A stretch of DNA of 29,741 nucleotides from a virus. The stretch lies in the IMG/VR virus record IMGVR_UViG_3300046698_000529, positions 1 through 29,741 of that record; one strand, given 5' to 3'. The translations under genes and the position numbers were made by a program. Every line of letters starts with the position of its first letter. Within the stretch, counting starts at the first letter, position 1. The notes under the pieces were generated by a model. That model worked only from the letters and a program-made list of their open reading frames with translations. It did no database searches and was not told the origin of the DNA. This document shows, piece after piece, positions 979-24,800 of the stretch.

Positions 979-2091
979 ATGGCAAAATCTAAAACCAATG
1001 ATAAAGAACTCCTTGCTGCATTTGAAGAGTTAGATAAAATCAATCCAGAAGCAACATTTCTTTCAGAATCAACACTATCAACGGTAGATTATTGGATAGA
1101 TACAGGGTGTGGTGCATTAAATGCCATTATTAGTGGAGATATTGTTAATGGTGGTATTCCTGGAGGTAGAATTACTCTTTTCTCAGGAGAGTCTATGTCA
1201 GGTAAAAGTTTTATTATTAACAAAATCTTAGCGAATGCACAAAAAGATGGATTATTTCCTGTAATTTTTGATAGTGAATTTGATAAAGATAAAGAAACAG
1301 TTGAAAATGCAGGACTTGATGCATCACGTACAAAATATGTACCTATAGGTACAATTGAGCAATTAACTTTACAAGTATGTAAGTTTCTTGATAGTGTTAT
1401 TGAAAAGAAATTAACAAAAAAATTCATTATTGCTATTGATTCTTTAGGAAATTTAGCCAGTGATAAGGAATTAACTGATATTGATAAAGGAAAAACTACT
1501 GGAGATATGGGTTTACGTGCTAAGGAAATTAAAAAATTCTTCCGTCTAGTAACATATAAATGTGCTAAAGCAAAAGTTCCTATGTTAATTTCTTTACATA
1601 TTTACCATGAACCAGCACAATTGTATCCATCCCTTGTTAAAAAAACTGGTGGAGGTGAAGGACCGATTTATTTAGCAACTGTTGGTATACAACTAGCTGC
1701 CCGAAAAGAAAAACAAGATGAAAAAAATGAACAAGACCAGATTCTTCCAGAAGGAAAATCATATAGTGGTGTAACTTTACGAATGTTAACAGTTAAAAAT
1801 AGATTTATTCCACCGTTTCTTGCAATTGAAAATTTTTTATCTTACAAAACGGGGTTGGATAAGTATTCAGGGCTTTTTGAAATGGCTGAAAACCATGGAA
1901 TTATTGTTAAAGATGGACATAGATATAATTTATTTGATGGAACTAAATTGGGATTTTACTCTGAATTCAGGCATAATGTAGATATATGGGAAAATAAAAT
2001 TATTCCTCCATTAAATGAGAAGATTAAACAAGCTTATCGGTATAATAGTGCTGTAGAACTACCAGAAAAACTTTTAGAACCAAAAGAATAA
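979..2091 (+). CDS. uvsX: UvsX-like RecA-family recombinase
   Basis: A RecA/UvsX-type strand-exchange ATPase for recombination-dependent replication and repair. The 370 aa compare with 391 in T4 UvsX. A Walker A motif GESMSGKS lies at about residues 70-77 and a Walker B strand IIAIDS ends near D154. The region around residues 205-230 (ISLHIYHEP, then the GGGEGP turn) matches the position of the DNA-binding loops. An N-terminal acidic/helical segment would be the polymerisation arm. The start ATG is 3 nt after the preceding stop with no Shine-Dalgarno, so expression probably relies on upstream transcription. It works with the gp32, gp41 and gp61 homologues encoded further along this window. 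Confidence 0.93.
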   Translation: MAKSKTNDKELLAAFEELDKINPEATFLSESTLSTVDYWIDTGCGALNAIISGDIVNGGIPGGRITLFSGESMSGKSFIINKILANAQKDGLFPVIFDSEFDKDKETVENAGLDASRTKYVPIGTIEQLTLQVCKFLDSVIEKKLTKKFIIAIDSLGNLASDKELTDIDKGKTTGDMGLRAKEIKKFFRLVTYKCAKAKVPMLISLHIYHEPAQLYPSLVKKTGGGEGPIYLATVGIQLAARKEKQDEKNEQDQILPEGKSYSGVTLRMLTVKNRFIPPFLAIENFLSYKTGLDKYSGLFEMAENHGIIVKDGHRYNLFDGTKLGFYSEFRHNVDIWENKIIPPLNEKIKQAYRYNSAVELPEKLLEPKE

Positions 2092-3151: not shown

Positions 3152-3913
3152 ATGAAAAAGGCCGTAATTCCCGTCAGCGGAGGAATGGATAGTTCCATAC
3201 TTCTTTATTATGCTAAGAAAGAATTAGGCTTTGATCAAATTTTTCCATTATCATTTAATTACAAGCAAAGACATCACTGGGAACTTGGTTATGCTTCAAT
3301 TCAAGTAGAAAAAGCACAAGTTGAACCATATAAAGAAATAGATGTTTCCTTCATAAAGGAACTTGTAACAAATTCTTCACTCACAAATCAAGCAATAGAT
3401 GTACCTAAAACACAGTATATACAAGGACACCCACAACCATCTTCTCATGTTGCATTTAGAAATATGATATTCCTCTCAATTGCGTGTTCATACGCTGAGA
3501 GTGTTGGAGCTGATACTGTTTTTCATGGAGCTGCACAACTAGATACCCTTGCAGGACATTGGGACGGATCGAATGAGTTTCTCACTTCTATTAACCAGTT
3601 AATATCTCTTAACCGTCTTCATAAGATTAAAATTGAAGCGCCACTAATTAACAAATCTAAGAAAGAAATTATAGAGTTAGGTATTAAATTAGGAGTTGAT
3701 TTTAAGATGACTCATACTTGTTATGATCCGGTTCAAAAATTAATAGGTGTTACTGATTATACAAGCTGTGGATATGTAGATATATTAGCCTGCGGAAAAT
3801 GCCAAGCTTGCGGTGGAAGATTGAAGGGTTTTGTTGATGCTGGTTATAAAGATCCGAAGGAGTACGCAATAGAAATTCCGTGGAGTCAGTACGGAATTGT
3901 TAATACAATTTAA
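3152..3913 (+). CDS. queC: 7-cyano-7-deazaguanine (preQ0) synthase QueC
   Basis: QueC converts 7-carboxy-7-deazaguanine to preQ0 using ATP and ammonia, a late step of 7-deazaguanine synthesis. The PP-loop ATP-pyrophosphatase motif SGGMDSS is at residues 9-15. The YKQRHHWEL block and the RNMIFLSIACSYAE helix are both typical of QueC. The zinc site is visible as C190 followed by C214, C217 and C220 (ACGKCQAC) before RLKGF. At 253 aa it is longer than the usual 220-235, because about 20 residues with one extra Cys (C206) are inserted between the first zinc ligand and the CGKC cluster. In phages this enzyme supplies preQ0 for DNA modification. The stand-alone glutamine amidotransferase at 5322 is a likely partner. 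Confidence 0.9.
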   Translation: MKKAVIPVSGGMDSSILLYYAKKELGFDQIFPLSFNYKQRHHWELGYASIQVEKAQVEPYKEIDVSFIKELVTNSSLTNQAIDVPKTQYIQGHPQPSSHVAFRNMIFLSIACSYAESVGADTVFHGAAQLDTLAGHWDGSNEFLTSINQLISLNRLHKIKIEAPLINKSKKEIIELGIKLGVDFKMTHTCYDPVQKLIGVTDYTSCGYVDILACGKCQACGGRLKGFVDAGYKDPKEYAIEIPWSQYGIVNTI

Positions 3914-3917
3914 ATAT

Positions 3918-4229
3918 ATGAAAATACCAAAAAAAGTACAAGCTAGTGTAGGAACACAAATTAAACAACTCGAACAAGCAACCATAGATGGAATAGGTAA
4001 GTATAAATACCTTTCCTGCGAACGTGCTTATCAATTACTTGATGTATTTTGTCAATTTGAAGATAAGATTGATGAAGTAGAAACTGACCAGTTTGTTAAT
4101 CAGCGAGATTGGGAATATATTTGTAATACATTATATCATAATGAAGATATAGATTGTGAAATAGATATTCCACAATCTATTACTAAGTTTCTTGAACGAG
4201 TAATAAAAGAATACGAACTCTACTCATAA
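3918..4229 (+). CDS. Hypothetical acidic protein (103 aa)
   Basis: A mainly helical, acidic protein (for example FCQFEDKIDEVETD) with no recognised motif. The frame can be extended upstream to a TTG at 3897, inside queC, but the ATG at 3918 is 4 nt after the queC stop and gives a normal basic N terminus (MKIPKK), so I use it. The gene sits between queC and guaC and is probably co-expressed with them. Whether it takes part in nucleotide metabolism cannot be told from sequence. Confidence 0.65.
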   Translation: MKIPKKVQASVGTQIKQLEQATIDGIGKYKYLSCERAYQLLDVFCQFEDKIDEVETDQFVNQRDWEYICNTLYHNEDIDCEIDIPQSITKFLERVIKEYELYS

Positions 4230-4233
4230 GAAC

Positions 4234-5175
4234 ATGGACCCTCTACTATCATACGACAATATCTGTTTATATCCCAATCACTCCTGCTTAAAAAGCCGGA
4301 GTTTAGCGGATACAACAGCTAGTTTGTGTGGTTGGAAGTTTATATTACCAGTTGTTCCTGCTAATATGCAGGATGTAATTGATTTTTCAAACGCAGAATA
4401 TTTGTCTAAGTATGATTATTTTTACATCATGCATAGGTTTAATGGAGCAACCCCTAATTTTATTCCTTATGCTAATGAAAGAGGTTTTAAATTGATTAGT
4501 GTTAGTATTGGCACTAAAGATTATGAAAAGGATTTAGTATCTCCTGATTATAGGATTGATTTTATTACGATTGACGTGGCGCATGGGTTTCATGATAATG
4601 TTATTCCTGTAATTGAATATGTTAGAAGTAATTATCCTAAAGCTAAATTGATTGTAGGTAATGTTGCAACAAGAGAAGGTGTAAAATTTCTTACAGGATT
4701 AGGAGCTGACATAATTAAATGTGGAATTGGTGGGTCGCAAATTTGTACCACCCGCTTCAAAACCGGATTTCATGTTCCAACTCTTCAATCTGTTGTTTAT
4801 GCACAAGAAGCATTAAACGATATGAATTTACATATTCCTATCATTGCAGATGGAGGTGCAAAGCATTATGGCGATGTAGCAAAAGCATTAACAATGGGGG
4901 CTAGCTTTGTAATGAGTGGGAGCTGGTTTGCTTCTTGTATAAATTCTCCTGCTAAGATTAAGAATGGAAAGAAGATTTACCGAGGCTCTACTTCATTTGA
5001 GATGAAAGGTCATAATAATCATATTGAAGGTAAAACACTTGAATTAGATGAAGCAATAACTTATTCAGATCGCTTAATTGAAATAGAGCAAGCACTTCAA
5101 AGTTCTATTTCTTATGCTGGTGGTAAAGATTTATCTGCTTTTAAAAGTGTTAAATGGGGAAGGATTAATTTATGA
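4234..5175 (+). CDS. guaC: GMP reductase (Bacillus GuaC type)
   Basis: GMP reductase converts GMP to IMP and ammonia with NADPH. The 313-aa TIM barrel has VVPANMQ near residues 40-46, FYIMHRF, the strand IDVAHG, GNVATREG, and the catalytic loop GGSQICTTRFKTG with Cys171. The Lys-Thr-Gly after CTTR and the C-terminal SISYAGGKDLSA favour GMP reductase of the firmicute kind over IMP dehydrogenase. There is no CBS pair. It is a rare phage gene. It could rebalance purines toward A for an AT-rich genome, or tune guanine pools next to a deazaguanine pathway; both are inference. Its TGA overlaps the ATG of the next small ORF. Confidence 0.87.
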   Translation: MDPLLSYDNICLYPNHSCLKSRSLADTTASLCGWKFILPVVPANMQDVIDFSNAEYLSKYDYFYIMHRFNGATPNFIPYANERGFKLISVSIGTKDYEKDLVSPDYRIDFITIDVAHGFHDNVIPVIEYVRSNYPKAKLIVGNVATREGVKFLTGLGADIIKCGIGGSQICTTRFKTGFHVPTLQSVVYAQEALNDMNLHIPIIADGGAKHYGDVAKALTMGASFVMSGSWFASCINSPAKIKNGKKIYRGSTSFEMKGHNNHIEGKTLELDEAITYSDRLIEIEQALQSSISYAGGKDLSAFKSVKWGRINL

Positions 5176-5297
5176 AATATATTTACGTTTTCCGCCATGA
5201 ACCATCAGTTAGTACTCTTTATTTTGATTTTCATCCAAAGGTATTACCTCCTTCATTCTTGGGACGCAACTTTATATATGGAGAGAAAATACAATAA
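5172..5297 (+). CDS. Small coupled ORF (41 aa) after guaC
   Basis: The ATG at 5172 overlaps the guaC stop in an ATGA junction, the classic arrangement for translational coupling. The 41-codon frame begins MKYIYVFRHEPSVSTLYF and ends with TAA at 5295-5297. It is aromatic-rich and resembles no family I know. It accounts for the otherwise empty gap between guaC and the amidotransferase. Confidence 0.5.
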   Translation: MKYIYVFRHEPSVSTLYFDFHPKVLPPSFLGRNFIYGEKIQ

Positions 5298-5321
5298 ATT
5301 TGTAGAATATAAAAATAGTTT

Positions 5322-6002
5322 ATGTGTGGAATAGCAGGCAGTAATAATAAAGAAAAATTTCAAACTCTTTACAAACTAAATAGTGAAAGAGGAAATTTTG
5401 CTAGCAGTTTTATAATTAAAACAAAAAATCATCTATTTATTAGAAAAAATGAAGGAATTCCTCCTTTTAAGTTTGATGAAACGGATTCAATAGAACCTGT
5501 TGAATTTTTTGCCTTACATACACAAGCACCTACATCTTCACAAAGAGAGTGGTCTGAAGAAACAAGTCATCCTTTTCAAAGTAAGGATTGGCTCTGTCTT
5601 CATAATGGGATTTTGGTTAACTTTGAAGAACTAAAGCAACAAAACTTACCTAAACATACAAATCCTGTTGATAGCTCAATCATACCAGCCCTCTTACAAC
5701 AAAGAACAACTAATCGTGATTTATATGATCCAAAAAATAAGATTCCTATTGAAGTTATTATTGCACAAGAAGTAGAAAAACTAAAAGGAACATTTGCATG
5801 TTGGATTTATTACATTCCAACAGGTAAAATATACTTAATTCGATGTTCTAGTACTCTTTTTGCTAATAAAGATGGAAATTTTTCATCAGTTCAATTTGAA
5901 AATTCAGAATTAGTTGAAGAAGGATGGGTATTTGAAGTAACTAATAAGGGATTAGTTAAGTTAGTACCATTTGTGTTTAATTCTCCGTTTTTATCATTAT
6001 GA
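5322..6002 (+). CDS. Stand-alone class II glutamine amidotransferase domain
   Basis: An N-terminal-nucleophile glutaminase that would release ammonia from glutamine for a partner enzyme. Cys2 follows the initiator Met (MCGIAG), as this family requires. The motifs SERGN, HTQAPT (residues 66-71, the position of the glutamine-binding Arg loop, here Gln), HNG at 94-96 and DSSIIPALL near 117-125 follow in the usual order. The 226 aa cover only the glutaminase. The synthetase or transferase domain found in PurF, GlmS or AsnB is absent, so it must act in trans. Crenarchaeal and phage Gat-QueC proteins fuse such a domain to QueC, and queC lies about 1.4 kb upstream here. It overlaps the next gene by 4 nt (ATGA). 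Confidence 0.82.
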   Translation: MCGIAGSNNKEKFQTLYKLNSERGNFASSFIIKTKNHLFIRKNEGIPPFKFDETDSIEPVEFFALHTQAPTSSQREWSEETSHPFQSKDWLCLHNGILVNFEELKQQNLPKHTNPVDSSIIPALLQQRTTNRDLYDPKNKIPIEVIIAQEVEKLKGTFACWIYYIPTGKIYLIRCSSTLFANKDGNFSSVQFENSELVEEGWVFEVTNKGLVKLVPFVFNSPFLSL

Positions 6003-6679
6003 ATCATTTAATTGTTTGTTGTACAAGGGATAAATTTAGTATAACACCATTATCACAAAGTCTGGGACCTGAACCAAAATTTGGAAGTAACTCTTATTTT
6101 ACAACACAAATATTTGAACACAATAAACAAAATATAAGCTCTCGTTATAATCAAGTATTAAAAGAATATAAAAATAGTCCAAATTTTGATAGTCTTATCT
6201 TCATTCACGATGATGTTGAGATTGTTGATCCTTGTTGGTTAGAAAAATTAGAAGAGGCTTATAAAGAGTATGATATTGTAGGATTAGCGGGAGGATTAAA
6301 TCCAAAAATACAAGCCCCAATTTTATGGCATATTATGTGTGGTAAAGAAAATTGTTATGGAGCAGTAGGCCATTTTACTGATACAGGTGAAAGATTTTTA
6401 ACTTTATTTGGCCCTACACCACACCGAATCTGTGTGTTAGATGGATTATTTTTAGCAATAAATCTAAAAACAGTTGAAAAAACAGAATGGAAATTTCAAG
6501 AAGAATTCAACCGACATTGTTATGATATATCGGCTAGTTTATACGCTAACGAACTAAAATTAAAAATGGGAGTTTGGCCAATATCTGTATATCATAAATC
6601 ACCTGGTCTTAGAGATATAAACGATAAGATATTTTTAGATGATCAACAGAAATTCTTAGATAAGTGGATAAAGAAGTAA
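5999..6679 (+). CDS. Glycosyltransferase-like protein (GT-A fold)
   Basis: The strand LIFIHDDVEIVD (around residues 65-76) is a nucleotide-sugar-binding acidic motif of the type seen in family-2-like glycosyltransferases. It is followed by a GLAGG turn and a later VLDGLFLAINLKT acceptor-side block, and a late His lies in the PISVYHKS segment. At 226 aa it is a minimal GT-A domain without membrane segments, so it should be cytosolic. The ATG overlaps the amidotransferase stop, linking the two in translation. The substrate is unknown: modified DNA base, virion protein or host glycan are all possible. Confidence 0.65.
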   Translation: MNHLIVCCTRDKFSITPLSQSLGPEPKFGSNSYFTTQIFEHNKQNISSRYNQVLKEYKNSPNFDSLIFIHDDVEIVDPCWLEKLEEAYKEYDIVGLAGGLNPKIQAPILWHIMCGKENCYGAVGHFTDTGERFLTLFGPTPHRICVLDGLFLAINLKTVEKTEWKFQEEFNRHCYDISASLYANELKLKMGVWPISVYHKSPGLRDINDKIFLDDQQKFLDKWIKK

Positions 6680-6716: not shown

Positions 6717-8054
6717 ATGGTAAGTTCTACATTTCAACTCGATCATGATTATTTTGAACAAGTCATTCTCTATAAAGTTTTGACGGATGAAATGTACTTA
6801 GCTACTATTGTAGAGCATTTAGATCCTACTTACTTCAAAGATAAAAATAAACAATCAGTTATTACTCTCATTGCTGATTTCTATAAGAAGAGAGGAACTG
6901 TTCCAACTATTCCTGAATTAAAGTCTTATCTCACTACACCTGAACTTAAAAGTTCCTTTAAAGCTGTTGTAAGAGAATTTGAACAATTCAATAAAAAACT
7001 TAATGAAGATGAATTGTATGAAAATACTGAAAATTTTTTAAAAGAAAAAGCTGTTGCAGCAGCAATGTGGAAGATTATTGAAGAGAAGGAAAAAGGAAAG
7101 ATTGATTCTTCCCAAATTCTTCAGATGATGGAAAAAGCCTGTTCGTTGAGCTTACTTAAGGATCTCGGTTTCGATTATTTTAACAAAATTGATCAACACA
7201 TTGCTGATATTAACCGAGTAGACGCATATATTTCAACTGGATGGAAATGGTTAGATAAGAAATTAGGTGGAGGATTACTTCAAGATGGAAGAGCATTATA
7301 TGTTTTTGCAGGACAACCAAATATAGGTAAATCAATTTTCTTAGGTAACATTGCTGTAAATGTTGCAGAACAAGGTAAAACAGTTGTAGTAATTACCTTA
7401 GAAATGCCTGAACAAATATATGCAAGAAGAGTATCAGCAAAACTTTCAAAAATTCCTGTTCATAGTTTTCCAAAAGTGTCTTCTGATTTAAAAGATAAAC
7501 TTTATACATATAAAGTAAAACATCCCAATTCACGTCTTATTATAAAGGAATTTCCTCCTGCAACTATTACTCCTATTCAATTAAATACATATTTTAAAAA
7601 ACTAAAACAGATTGGTGTAATTCCAGATTTGATTGTGTTAGATTATTTGAATCTGCTTACTACTACGATTGGTAATAATTCATATGAAAAAATTAAACAT
7701 ATTTCTGAGCAGGTGAGAGCGTTAACCTATATTTATAAATGTCCGATTATTTCAGCCACCCAATTAAATCGCACTGGTGTTAATCAAACTGAACCCGGTA
7801 TTGAGACTACAAGTGAAAGTATGGGAACACCTGCAACAGCAGATGTAATGGTTAGTGTTTGGCAAGAAGATGAAGATTATGAATTAGGGATAATTAAGAT
7901 GAGTTTTGTAAAAAATCGATTTGGACCAAATTTTGGCACTTGTATAATGAGAATTGATTATCCTACATTATCTTTAACTGAAGAGGAACATAGTAACGAG
8001 ACTGATGAGATGATTTCTACGACCCAAATACTCAATAATTTAACATTATTATAA
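6717..8054 (+). CDS. 41: DnaB-family replicative helicase (T4 gp41-like)
   Basis: The hexameric 5'-3' helicase that unwinds the fork and works with the gp61-type primase. At 445 aa it is close to T4 gp41 (475). A helical N-terminal domain (residues 1-140, related to the DnaB collar) is followed by the RecA-like motor. Walker A is GQPNIGKS at about 199-206, TLEMPEQ is at about 227-233 (motif H1a), and Walker B DLIVLDYLNLL ends near D309. Downstream, ISATQLNRTG is the glutamine sensor loop (H3) and VKNRFGPNFG the arginine-finger region. It has its own sigma70-like promoter and no Shine-Dalgarno. Confidence 0.92.
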   Translation: MVSSTFQLDHDYFEQVILYKVLTDEMYLATIVEHLDPTYFKDKNKQSVITLIADFYKKRGTVPTIPELKSYLTTPELKSSFKAVVREFEQFNKKLNEDELYENTENFLKEKAVAAAMWKIIEEKEKGKIDSSQILQMMEKACSLSLLKDLGFDYFNKIDQHIADINRVDAYISTGWKWLDKKLGGGLLQDGRALYVFAGQPNIGKSIFLGNIAVNVAEQGKTVVVITLEMPEQIYARRVSAKLSKIPVHSFPKVSSDLKDKLYTYKVKHPNSRLIIKEFPPATITPIQLNTYFKKLKQIGVIPDLIVLDYLNLLTTTIGNNSYEKIKHISEQVRALTYIYKCPIISATQLNRTGVNQTEPGIETTSESMGTPATADVMVSVWQEDEDYELGIIKMSFVKNRFGPNFGTCIMRIDYPTLSLTEEEHSNETDEMISTTQILNNLTLL

Positions 8055-21835: not shown

Positions 21836-24800
21836 TTAATAATTTGAATTGACTGGATATTTATAGCCAAAAACTTCAACAAGAGTTAGACTTCCTTTCA
21901 AAGGCTGTAAAAAGTCTTGATAAGCATAATACTGAGAACCATTACCTGTTGTATAATTTGTATTAGTAATAAGATCTATTGATATTCCTAATGATGGAGG
22001 AAGTATTGAACTCATTCCCCACCCTGTACCATAATTCATAGCACTCAAACTATTGTTAACTGTTTGAATTGTTGAAGGTGCATTATTTAAAAATGGATAT
22101 ATAATATTACCATCAGTAAATTGTTGATACCAAATAGTATTATAAGTAGTATTGATTTGACTATTTGATAAATACCATAGAATTGCATTAGATGTATATC
22201 CCTTAGTACGTAATGCTAAAGTAAGGTAAGGTGTTGAAGGTGTTATGTTAATTCCATTAGTTCCACTACTCCAACTAGGATAAATAGGAGCATATATACG
22301 AACACCTGTGATAAGATATCTATAATTTGGATCTGAAGGAAAAATTTCCCAACCTACTTTTATATATGTAGCATTACTTCTTGATGTTGCTCTTGAAGGA
22401 AGAGGTGGTGTTACAATAACTGTTTGTTGATCTATTACTGCAACAACTTCATAAATTTCAAGACCAAAAAGTGGACCAACATATGCTAATTTATCACCTG
22501 GATATAAACAAGATAGAAGATCATTAGCTCCTGCACTCAAAATTCCTGGTGTAAATGTTGTAATAGTAGGATTGCTTTGTAATCCTGTTGGTGTTGTTTG
22601 AGCTTTTGTCCATAATAATCCAGTTAAAACTTGACTATTACCTTGACCTGAAAGTTTATATGTTTCATAATTTAACCTTCTAACATTTCTAATAGGTTCA
22701 CCACCATATGGTGAAAATTCTGTATTAGTAATAAATTTACGTCCTTGACCAAAAGTAGGTATAGTACCATATCCACTTCCACCTGATAAAACAGTTACTT
22801 TAGTTACTTGTCCATTATTAAGTTCTGGAAGTAAAACTGCTCCAGATCCTCCTCCATCATTTGGAATAGCAAAAGCATTTGGAGGAAGTATATATCCTAC
22901 ACCACCATCTAAAACATTAACTCGTGCAACAGATCCATTTTGTATATAACCCCGTGCTCGAGCACCAGTCCCTAATACTAATTGTCCTGGTTGCCCAGTT
23001 ACAAATTCAACTCTTAAACCACTTGTATTACCATAACTATTATTAACTGTTATTTCGAGTTTATTAATACCATTTATTAATAAATTAGTTGTATTTATAA
23101 TAAATGGATTAGCAGACGGTTGATCCATATATGATGGACGTAGTAATATTAATCCGGTAGAAATACCATTAATAGTAACATTAACAATTTGATCATCACA
23201 AGTCCAAGCTCCTGTTATATTTTGAATATAATTAGCATTATTATTAACTGTAAAAGATAAACTATAAGTAAAAGTAGCAGTGTTTGGAAAGATTTGAGCT
23301 TGAGCAGCATGAAGTATATTTGACGGTGAAATCCACTGAGAATTTGGACCATTAGATGCCCATTGAGATAGATTACTAAATGTCCAATTTTGACCTACAA
23401 AAACTGAAAGAGCTGGATTATATGTAGTATTGGTTTTATTAATATTCCAATGTTGTTCTTTAGAACCTTGAGTTGCGAGAGATCCATCATCATTTACACC
23501 TGTGTTGTATAAACCAGAAAGCGCAGAGGTTGTAGCTGCAGAAATGTTACTAACAAATAGTATATCTACTCCTTCATTGTAATGTCTTAATTCATCGTTA
23601 TTTTCAATCCAGAAATGATCATCTCCTAATTTTAAATGACCATTGTCTACCATACTTGAAGAAGAAACTATTCCTCGATCAAAAGCTACTTCTTCATATC
23701 CAGAATATAGATCTTGATCAGGAGCAAAATCAACTAAAGTAGGAATACATAGTCCATTTGATGTATAATTTTCTTGTCCATCATCCCTATAACTGATAGT
23801 AATAGGGATGTTTTCAATATTAACATAAACATCTGTGTAAACAATATTATTATATGAAAGTACTCGTGCACGAGTTACACATGTAGAACCCAATGTATCA
23901 AATTTGTTTACCTTTATAAATCCAGTTTCAGTTGTGTTATTAAAATTAACATCAAAGTTAGTTGATTCATACAAAGAAGCAATTGATAAATTTGTAATTG
24001 CTTGACCACTTTGTGAAGTAAAAATAGTATACCAACCTGCACTTAATGGTATAAATTGTGCAGTAGATGTATTAATCGTTTTGGTAGATATGATTATATC
24101 TTGCGGAGATGCATTTGTATTTAAAGCACTATAATAAAAAGGAATAGAAGTTTGTAATGCACTTAATGTTTGACTAGGAATAAAATAATTTATTATATTA
24201 TCTTGAATAATATTATTACAGTTGTTTAAAGTTAATCCTTCAATACAAATTACAGGAATTTTGGTAGTATCTTGAGTAGAAGAAAGTGTAAGAAAGTTAG
24301 TAGAATAAACTCCATCACCATTAAAGATACAATTTTGTATTTTTAAATAAGGAGCAGTATTTACTGCTGATAATTGAGGAATATTCCAAAGAATAGCACC
24401 ATTACTATAACTACCTGAAAGTGATATATTTTTTAGATTAATATTTGATGCTTCATTTTGTAGCCAAATAGCAGTTGAATTAACTGCATCTAAATTACTA
24501 TTGAAAATAAAGCAATTTTCAATATTAATTAATCCAGTTTCACTATTTTGGTTAGCTAATGGCTGAATTTTTATACCTATACCTCCACCGTAAATTGCAA
24601 CATTACTAATTATAACTCCTCTGCTAGAATCATTAATAGTTAAAGCAGTATTTGGTATATTTGCAATTGTATCTAACTCATATCCTTGAAAATAAAAGGA
24701 TAAATTTTCAATAATAAATCCACTATCAGTAGGAATAAATCCTATTGGTCCTGCAGTAGTAGATGCAACAGTGGTCATTATATCCTTTGTAATACCCTGT

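Follow-up and report, generated by a model that had tools for sequence, protein, structure and literature searches.

The 29,741-base IMG/VR virus record IMGVR_UViG_3300046698_000529, itself a fragment and referred to at its full length as the window, carries on one strand separate genes for QueC and for a stand-alone class II glutaminase (Gat). The pair is a real and conserved split variant of Gat-QueC, known as a fused enzyme from Crenarchaeota, phage 9g and relatives, within a known kind of pathway. We put at somewhat better than even the chances that QueC and Gat together act as a two-subunit, glutamine-dependent synthase of 7-cyano-7-deazaguanine (preQ0) that feeds preQ1 into phage DNA. 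The N-terminal cysteine of Gat would split glutamine and Gat would pass the ammonia to QueC, which with ATP would turn 7-carboxy-7-deazaguanine into preQ0; QueF, as encoded by relatives, would reduce preQ0 to preQ1, which a base-exchange enzyme of the DpdA type would substitute for guanine in the phage DNA, where it would probably shield against restriction. Making QueC glutamine-dependent is the simplest role for Gat. Glutamine hydrolysis by Gat, its binding to QueC, the use of the ammonia for preQ0 rather than archaeosine, and the remaining genes in the window's phage are what we infer.

QueC and Gat of the Window

The features of the pair are as follows.

3152..3913, + strand: QueC, preQ0 synthase, 253 aa, predicted from PF06508, TIGR00364, the SGGxDS motif and four zinc cysteines
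3719..3811, + strand: enlarged zinc region of QueC, Cys190-Cys220, C(x)23CxxCxxC, from alignment with 7 phage QueC
5322..6002, + strand: Gat, stand-alone class II glutaminase (N-terminal nucleophile, Ntn, hydrolase), 226 aa, with predicted catalytic Cys2, from motifs, profiles and the fold of a relative

The window QueC is a predicted preQ0 synthase: it matches Pfam PF06508 above the cut-off (E=2e-53), reaches 152.4 bits against NCBIfam TIGR00364 (cut-off 150.3), and retains the SGGxDS phosphate loop and all four zinc cysteines. Cys190 and the CxxCxxC motif (residues 214-220) are in place, and the 23 residues that separate Cys190 from Cys214 exceed the loops of the 7 aligned phage QueC. CxxCxxC is retained in the window and absent from 36 of 128 distinct QueC sequences; those lacking it (L015, L016, L017, L138, L160, and others) mostly keep SGGxDS. 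The Vibrio phage record 6E35.1a (MW824377.1) has, outside the cluster, another and partial match to the QueC family (217758-218003, E=5e-10).

Gat begins with Met-Cys2, carries the HNG oxyanion motif and an Asp at the Asp123 place, and has no synthetase domain. Its Pfam scores fall below gathering (GATase_6, E=2e-4, 21.8 bits against a cut-off of 27; GATase_7, 20.6 bits against 25), while the homologue in Pseudomonas phage pf16 passes both cut-offs (39.9 and 32.6 bits). The window Gat also matches phrog_12378 (E=7e-19), and the profile of the family matches the GlmS glutaminase 4amv (E=1e-4). Among 127 distinct Gat sequences (motif counts were made on distinct sequences only, leaving out L010, a weak match on a Listeria-labelled contig with no QueC), HNG is present in all 127, the Asp motif in 126, and the MC start, by a crude start call, in 114.

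An earlier note, made from the letters of the window, had described this arrangement, and most of it held. The two genes, said to lie 1.4 kb apart on the same strand, are 1408 nt apart, and the coordinates given were all correct; the enlarged zinc region and the glutaminase with Cys2 and no synthetase domain were found as described. No other amidation enzyme had been seen nearby, and a scan of 10 window proteins surrounding the pair gave none either.

Conservation of the Pair

Searching 50,697 phage records with the window Gat (tblastn, E<=0.01) returned 55 records, comprising 49 Vibrio phages, two records of pf16, and four Listeria-labelled contigs. Nine of these were opened, and gat directly follows queC in eight (pf16, 2.275.O, KVP40, nt-1, 1.081.O, F86, D491s, and 6E35.1a), six of which have annotated genes overlapping by 1 nt (TGATG/ATGA-type); the ninth, Listeria contig L010, has the Gat match without QueC. 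Scans of viral contigs with the window Gat or window QueC as single proteins found no relatives, and alignments of eight sequences each succeeded: that of Gat gave 86 relatives, of which 80 were kept, and 80 loci were taken with that of QueC. Cellular genomes scanned with the Gat alignment gave no match, a result from a single narrow pattern that does not imply absence from cells.

With L001, a copy of the window, excluded before counting, QueC was present in 71 of the 80 loci fetched with Gat, and in the remaining nine the contig breaks off within 3.5 kb of Gat on the side that should hold QueC. The earlier note had named glutaminase homologues consistently lacking queC as evidence that would speak against the pairing; they were looked for, and the counts do not refute it. 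Gat was likewise present in 72 of the 80 loci fetched with QueC, five of the other eight being at a contig edge and three having no Gat beside QueC. Over the 160 loci with Gat, 150 hold QueC, always on the same strand (150/150) and upstream in 149, with a median gap of 43 nt; the gap exceeds 100 nt in 68 of 149 pairs, and wide spacing such as that of the window is common in its clade. In a second group of loci (L037, L042, L053, L055, L057, and L061-L064), queC and gat lie in frame, separated by one TAA and a 21-nt gap. The association of QueC with Gat is thus far beyond chance.

Flavobacterium phage immuto and Campylobacter phage CP220 have QueC and the same type of DpdA as relatives of the window, and Gat was not found in them by profile search. 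This argues that Gat is an add-on to QueC that stands outside DpdA chemistry, and that it is optional, as expected of an ammonia-supplying subunit.

Relation to the Fused Enzyme

Both window proteins match phrog_10428, the family of the phage 9g fusion, and each aligns with its own part of that protein: the Gat family profile with residues 1-183 (hhalign probability 96.4, E=1.3e-9) and QueC with residues 253-457 (probability 99.1). The homology of QueC and Gat to both halves of the fused enzyme is firm, and a complex of the two is hypothetical; "split Gat-QueC", the label used in the earlier note, is a fair one. The layouts differ, in that Gat is N-terminal in the fused form, whereas the window and its relatives have separate genes with Gat downstream of QueC; no fusion occurs in any of the 150 loci holding both (0/150), and in the window they are separate open reading frames (ORFs). 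A model of the L055 queC-gat chain read through its stop codon gave two well-folded domains (pLDDT 87.2), with Foldseek matches to QueC (2.3e-14) and to the GlmS glutaminase (1.1e-11, Z 22).

Other split glutaminase/synthetase enzymes, such as archaeal GMP synthase (PMC13329287), offer a further parallel: as in the window pair, the ATP-pyrophosphatase subunit and the glutaminase are products of separate genes. The glutaminase of that enzyme is of class I (PF00117), whereas the window Gat is of class II.

Other Pathway Genes in Relatives

On the window fragment there is no 7-deazaguanine pathway gene besides QueC and Gat, and the remaining genes of its own phage are inferred from relatives. The earlier note had suggested looking for folE, queD, queE, and dpdA elsewhere in the genome; all four, together with queF, turned up in relatives, and none on the window. 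Among 42 related records, nearly all of them fragments, QueD is present in 27, FolE in 23, QueF in 15 (one only below the family cut-off), and a ~270-aa DpdA-like protein in 13, of which 11 also have QueF. FolE, QueD, QueE, QueC, Gat, and QueF are found together in each of G045 (230 kb) and G032 (157 kb), which are the longest two of the records resembling the window. G045 also encodes a tubulin/FtsZ-like protein (22426-23532) with a weak match to PhuZ (phrog_4733, E=6e-4), in a T4-like record.

QueF of the relatives sits in an operon with the ~270-aa DpdA-like protein, a PurN-like formyltransferase (PF00551), and a kinase. The NADPH motif is kept in 86 of 86 distinct QueF sequences and the thioimide Cys and His motifs in 84 of 86, these being the motifs that we take to define QueF. 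In G029, the record of one of the two loci closest to the window in QueC (56% identity), a single strand carries queC, gat, a glycosyltransferase gene, the dpdA-like gene, the formyltransferase and kinase genes, queF, and a GMP-reductase-like gene.

Pfam PF01702, the tRNA-guanine transglycosylase (TGT) family, had no match in any of 50 records (50/50), including KVP40 with its known DpdA2, and the ~270-aa protein was also unmatched; since PF01702 misses the KVP40 DpdA2, this negative is worthless for the transglycosylase question. Structure was more telling. The AlphaFold model of the ~270-aa protein (pLDDT 90.3, pTM 0.89) had TGT as all 50 of 50 among the Foldseek matches listed (best E=1.3e-8), and it superimposes on archaeosine TGT 1iq8 (Z 18.2, 238 residues, 3.1 A) and on the DNA preQ0 insertase DpdA 7ui4 (Z 17.5, 232 residues, 3.3 A). 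It is 45% identical to the annotated DpdA of immuto and to a CP220 protein. We thus regard it as a predicted DpdA-type transglycosylase. The type of DpdA found in relatives of the window presumably goes with complete guanine replacement in Campylobacter phages. The family (e.g., G045:226049-226882) corresponds to phrog_19058, which has no annotated function, and occurs in at least 536 viral-contig stretches. Of the 80 loci fetched with the DpdA-like protein (L208-L287), 78 have QueF and all 80 the kinase. A different protein, c17 (~410 aa, beside the DNA polymerase), was rejected as the transglycosylase, with an hhalign probability of 0.1-0.2 against DpdA2 and PHROG matches to glycosyltransferases.

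In several loci, L079, L081, L083, L090, and L165 among them, the DpdA-like gene is found upstream of QueC-Gat with FolE on one side and QueF on the other, which is the place of DpdA2 in KVP40. In the nt-1 record the protein directly upstream of queC is YP_008125322, identified as DpdA2 in the text of PMC6884629. The Schizotequatrovirus/nt-1 cluster (FolE, QueD, DpdA2, QueF, and QueC) has the same QueC-Gat order as the window, with Gat labeled there as a "hypothetical protein". The window clade differs from it in having another transglycosylase (the ~270-aa, DpdA-like phrog_19058 protein) in another operon, a glycosyltransferase gene joined to the gat stop codon, and UvsX-QueC-Gat-helicase synteny. 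The DpdA operon of immuto and CP220 shares the transglycosylase of the relatives, followed in immuto by a formyltransferase, a thymidylate-kinase-like protein, and QueF; these phages differ from the window and its relatives in the matter of Gat, as noted above.

The Product in DNA and Alternative Roles of Gat

Two isolates with the pair have measured DNA. Vibrio phage 6E351A (record 6E35.1a) has the cluster order queD-folE-TGT-like-queF-queC-gat, and 15% of the dG in its DNA is replaced by the deoxynucleoside of preQ1 (dPreQ1), a 295 Da nucleoside, according to the main text of PMC12028318, which credits FolE, QueD, QueE, QueC, QueF, and DpdA and does not contain the word "amidotransferase". 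For nt-1, which has the QueC-Gat pair in a cluster whose annotation shows no QueF, PMC6884629 gives, per million nucleotides, 232 dPreQ0, 72 dADG, and 44 deoxyarchaeosine (dG+), the last being 0.02% of G. In the isolates with the pair and measured DNA, the main bases are thus preQ1 or preQ0, which disfavors deoxyarchaeosine as the product. We consider preQ1-type DNA likely and deoxyarchaeosine unlikely. The product suggested in the earlier note, 2'-deoxyarchaeosine, thus did not fare well on the published measurements, whereas its wider wording, "another 7-deazaguanine", covers the likeliest outcome.

The strongest competitor, which we still consider unlikely, is a split archaeosine synthase, in which QueC and Gat would make preQ0 and then add ammonia to its nitrile to give deoxyarchaeosine, as the 9g fusion does. 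Both halves are homologous to 9g Gat-QueC, which, when combined with DpdA, introduces dG+ into the DNA of plasmids (PMC6884629), and some dG+ is found in nt-1. The relatives differ from the fused form, however, in carrying QueF and in having dPreQ1 or dPreQ0 in the DNA measured elsewhere, as opposed to mainly dG+ for the fused form. 6E351A has the same pair and dPreQ1, and in nt-1 dPreQ0 exceeds dG+ fivefold (PMC12028318 and PMC6884629); an ArcS homologue in nt-1 (PF17884, E=2.5e-12) could make the dG+ there. No PF17884 match was found in KVP40, pf16, or 2.275.O. QueF, moreover, is usual in split-pair phages (present in 15 of 42 mostly fragmentary records).

About as improbable as this, and also unlikely, is that Gat does not serve QueC and shares only the pathway with it, acting as an amidotransferase either when the base is decorated at a later stage or in sugar chemistry linked to the glycosyltransferase whose gene overlaps its own. 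The overlap is exactly 4 nt in 74 of the 125 loci with both genes, and the evolutionary distances discussed below do not tie Gat to QueC specifically. In KVP40, nt-1, 6E35.1a, and pf16, however, gat comes immediately after queC, and their loci gave no glycosyltransferase of the window family; moreover, natural Gat-QueC fusions exist. The proposal that QueC is repurposed to attach a deazaguanine to another molecule, like Cap9 or QatC, with Gat as a helper, would accord with documented repurposing in the QueC superfamily (PMC13329287), the CxxCxxC losses, and the long zinc loop of the window QueC, but we judge it very improbable given that this QueC passes TIGR00364 with SGGxDS and its four cysteines intact and that relatives carry the complete pathway.

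Several observations weigh against a glutamine-dependent preQ0 synthase. At the place of GlmS Arg73, which we take to be a glutamine-binding residue, 103 of the 127 distinct Gat sequences have Gln, the window included, and 23 have Arg, which makes glutamine use by the window Gat uncertain. The distance-matrix correlation between Gat and QueC (r=0.71) equals that between Gat and the helicase (r=0.71), so this pairing signal is not specific. Some of the QueC proteins that have lost CxxCxxC may not be ordinary preQ0 synthases. It is for these three reasons that we keep our confidence in the two-subunit synthase only modestly above even. In addition, L163, L164, and L169 are QueC loci with no adjacent Gat; the L055 read-through model has a pTM of 0.56, so that the placement of its domains relative to each other is not confident and it gives no direct evidence of an interface; and the 9g fusion makes dG+ (PMC6884629), so by analogy the ammonia could serve an archaeosine step here too.

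Neighboring Genes

The window encodes T4-like replication functions, namely a UvsX-like recombinase, a DnaB-like helicase, a DHH phosphoesterase, a 5'-3' exonuclease, and a primase. The order on the + strand is QueC, an uncharacterised ORF, a GMP-reductase-like gene, Gat, and a glycosyltransferase gene; the last, the GMP-reductase-like gene, and the intervening ORF had not been listed in the earlier note. Promoter- and terminator-like sequences between 2500 and 8100 numbered 21 and 3, compared with 28.9 and 2.1 in shuffles, with no clear excess, and are uninformative on an operon. The features around the pair are as follows.

979..2091, + strand: UvsX-like recombinase (phrog_97, E=4e-55), a neighbor marking a conserved replication block
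3897..4229, + strand: ORF between QueC and the GMP-reductase-like gene, from the ORF list, with no Pfam or PHROG match
4234..5175, + strand: GMP-reductase-like protein (IMP dehydrogenase/GMP reductase family), 313 aa (PF00478, E=6e-49)
5999..6679, + strand: GT-A type glycosyltransferase (PF13712, E=2e-9), overlapping the gat stop codon by 4 nt (ATGA)
6717..8054, + strand: gp41/DnaB-like helicase, a neighbor, from tblastn to T4-like DNA primase/helicase genes

The gene at 4234-5175 scores 275 bits (E=8e-82) against the NCBIfam GMP reductase PRK05458, below its cut-off of 344, and is hence called GMP-reductase-like only; its closest solved structure is GMP reductase 1ypf (E=2e-62). In the window, L094, L096, L099, L122, and L123, such a gene lies between QueC and Gat, and 8 of 80 loci have it within the dpdA-queF operon, where it sits between the formyltransferase and QueF genes (another GMP-reductase-like gene is at G032:129061-130032). 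One idea is that the enzyme might remove GMP derived from the guanine freed by base exchange.

Homologues of the glycosyltransferase are on the Gat strand in all 125 loci that hold both, and they occur in two layouts, either beside the helicase or, in the second group, with QueD-QueE upstream and DUF366 downstream. The enzyme may decorate the base. This recurrence in two layouts and the overlap with gat are the basis for a more speculative proposal, that DNA of the window clade carries a glycosylated 7-deazaguanine, with glutamine-fed preQ0 converted to preQ1, inserted by DpdA, and glycosylated by the GT-A enzyme; we consider it unlikely. A second glycosyltransferase, this one of GT-B type (phrog_7162), is likewise conserved in these phages, next to the DNA polymerase. 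Also conserved is a DUF366 protein (G045:12268-12849, G032:114791-115375, G010, G017, and 25 second-group loci, there beside the glycosyltransferase), whose closest solved structure is 2ddz (E=6e-6) and which is a possible base-decorating enzyme.

Significance of the Split Pair

In the main texts of the literature covered, no phage is described as having a stand-alone Gat next to QueC. The table of modification genes of KVP40 in PMC8056088 lists 0120, folE, 0122, 0123, 0124, and 0284, without the Gat gene, 0125, and the published gene lists of that cluster, as far as these texts give them, omit Gat. The present analysis gives a predicted function to a "hypothetical" protein of KVP40, nt-1, and relatives, inside a cluster for which DNA chemistry has been measured. 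It raises the questions of whether a dedicated glutaminase makes QueC glutamine-dependent, and of what sets archaeosine vs. preQ1 as the product, given one pair of domains that occurs in fused and in split form. More broadly, many uncultivated aquatic phages, forming a large group, encode a complete pathway for the replacement of guanine in DNA.

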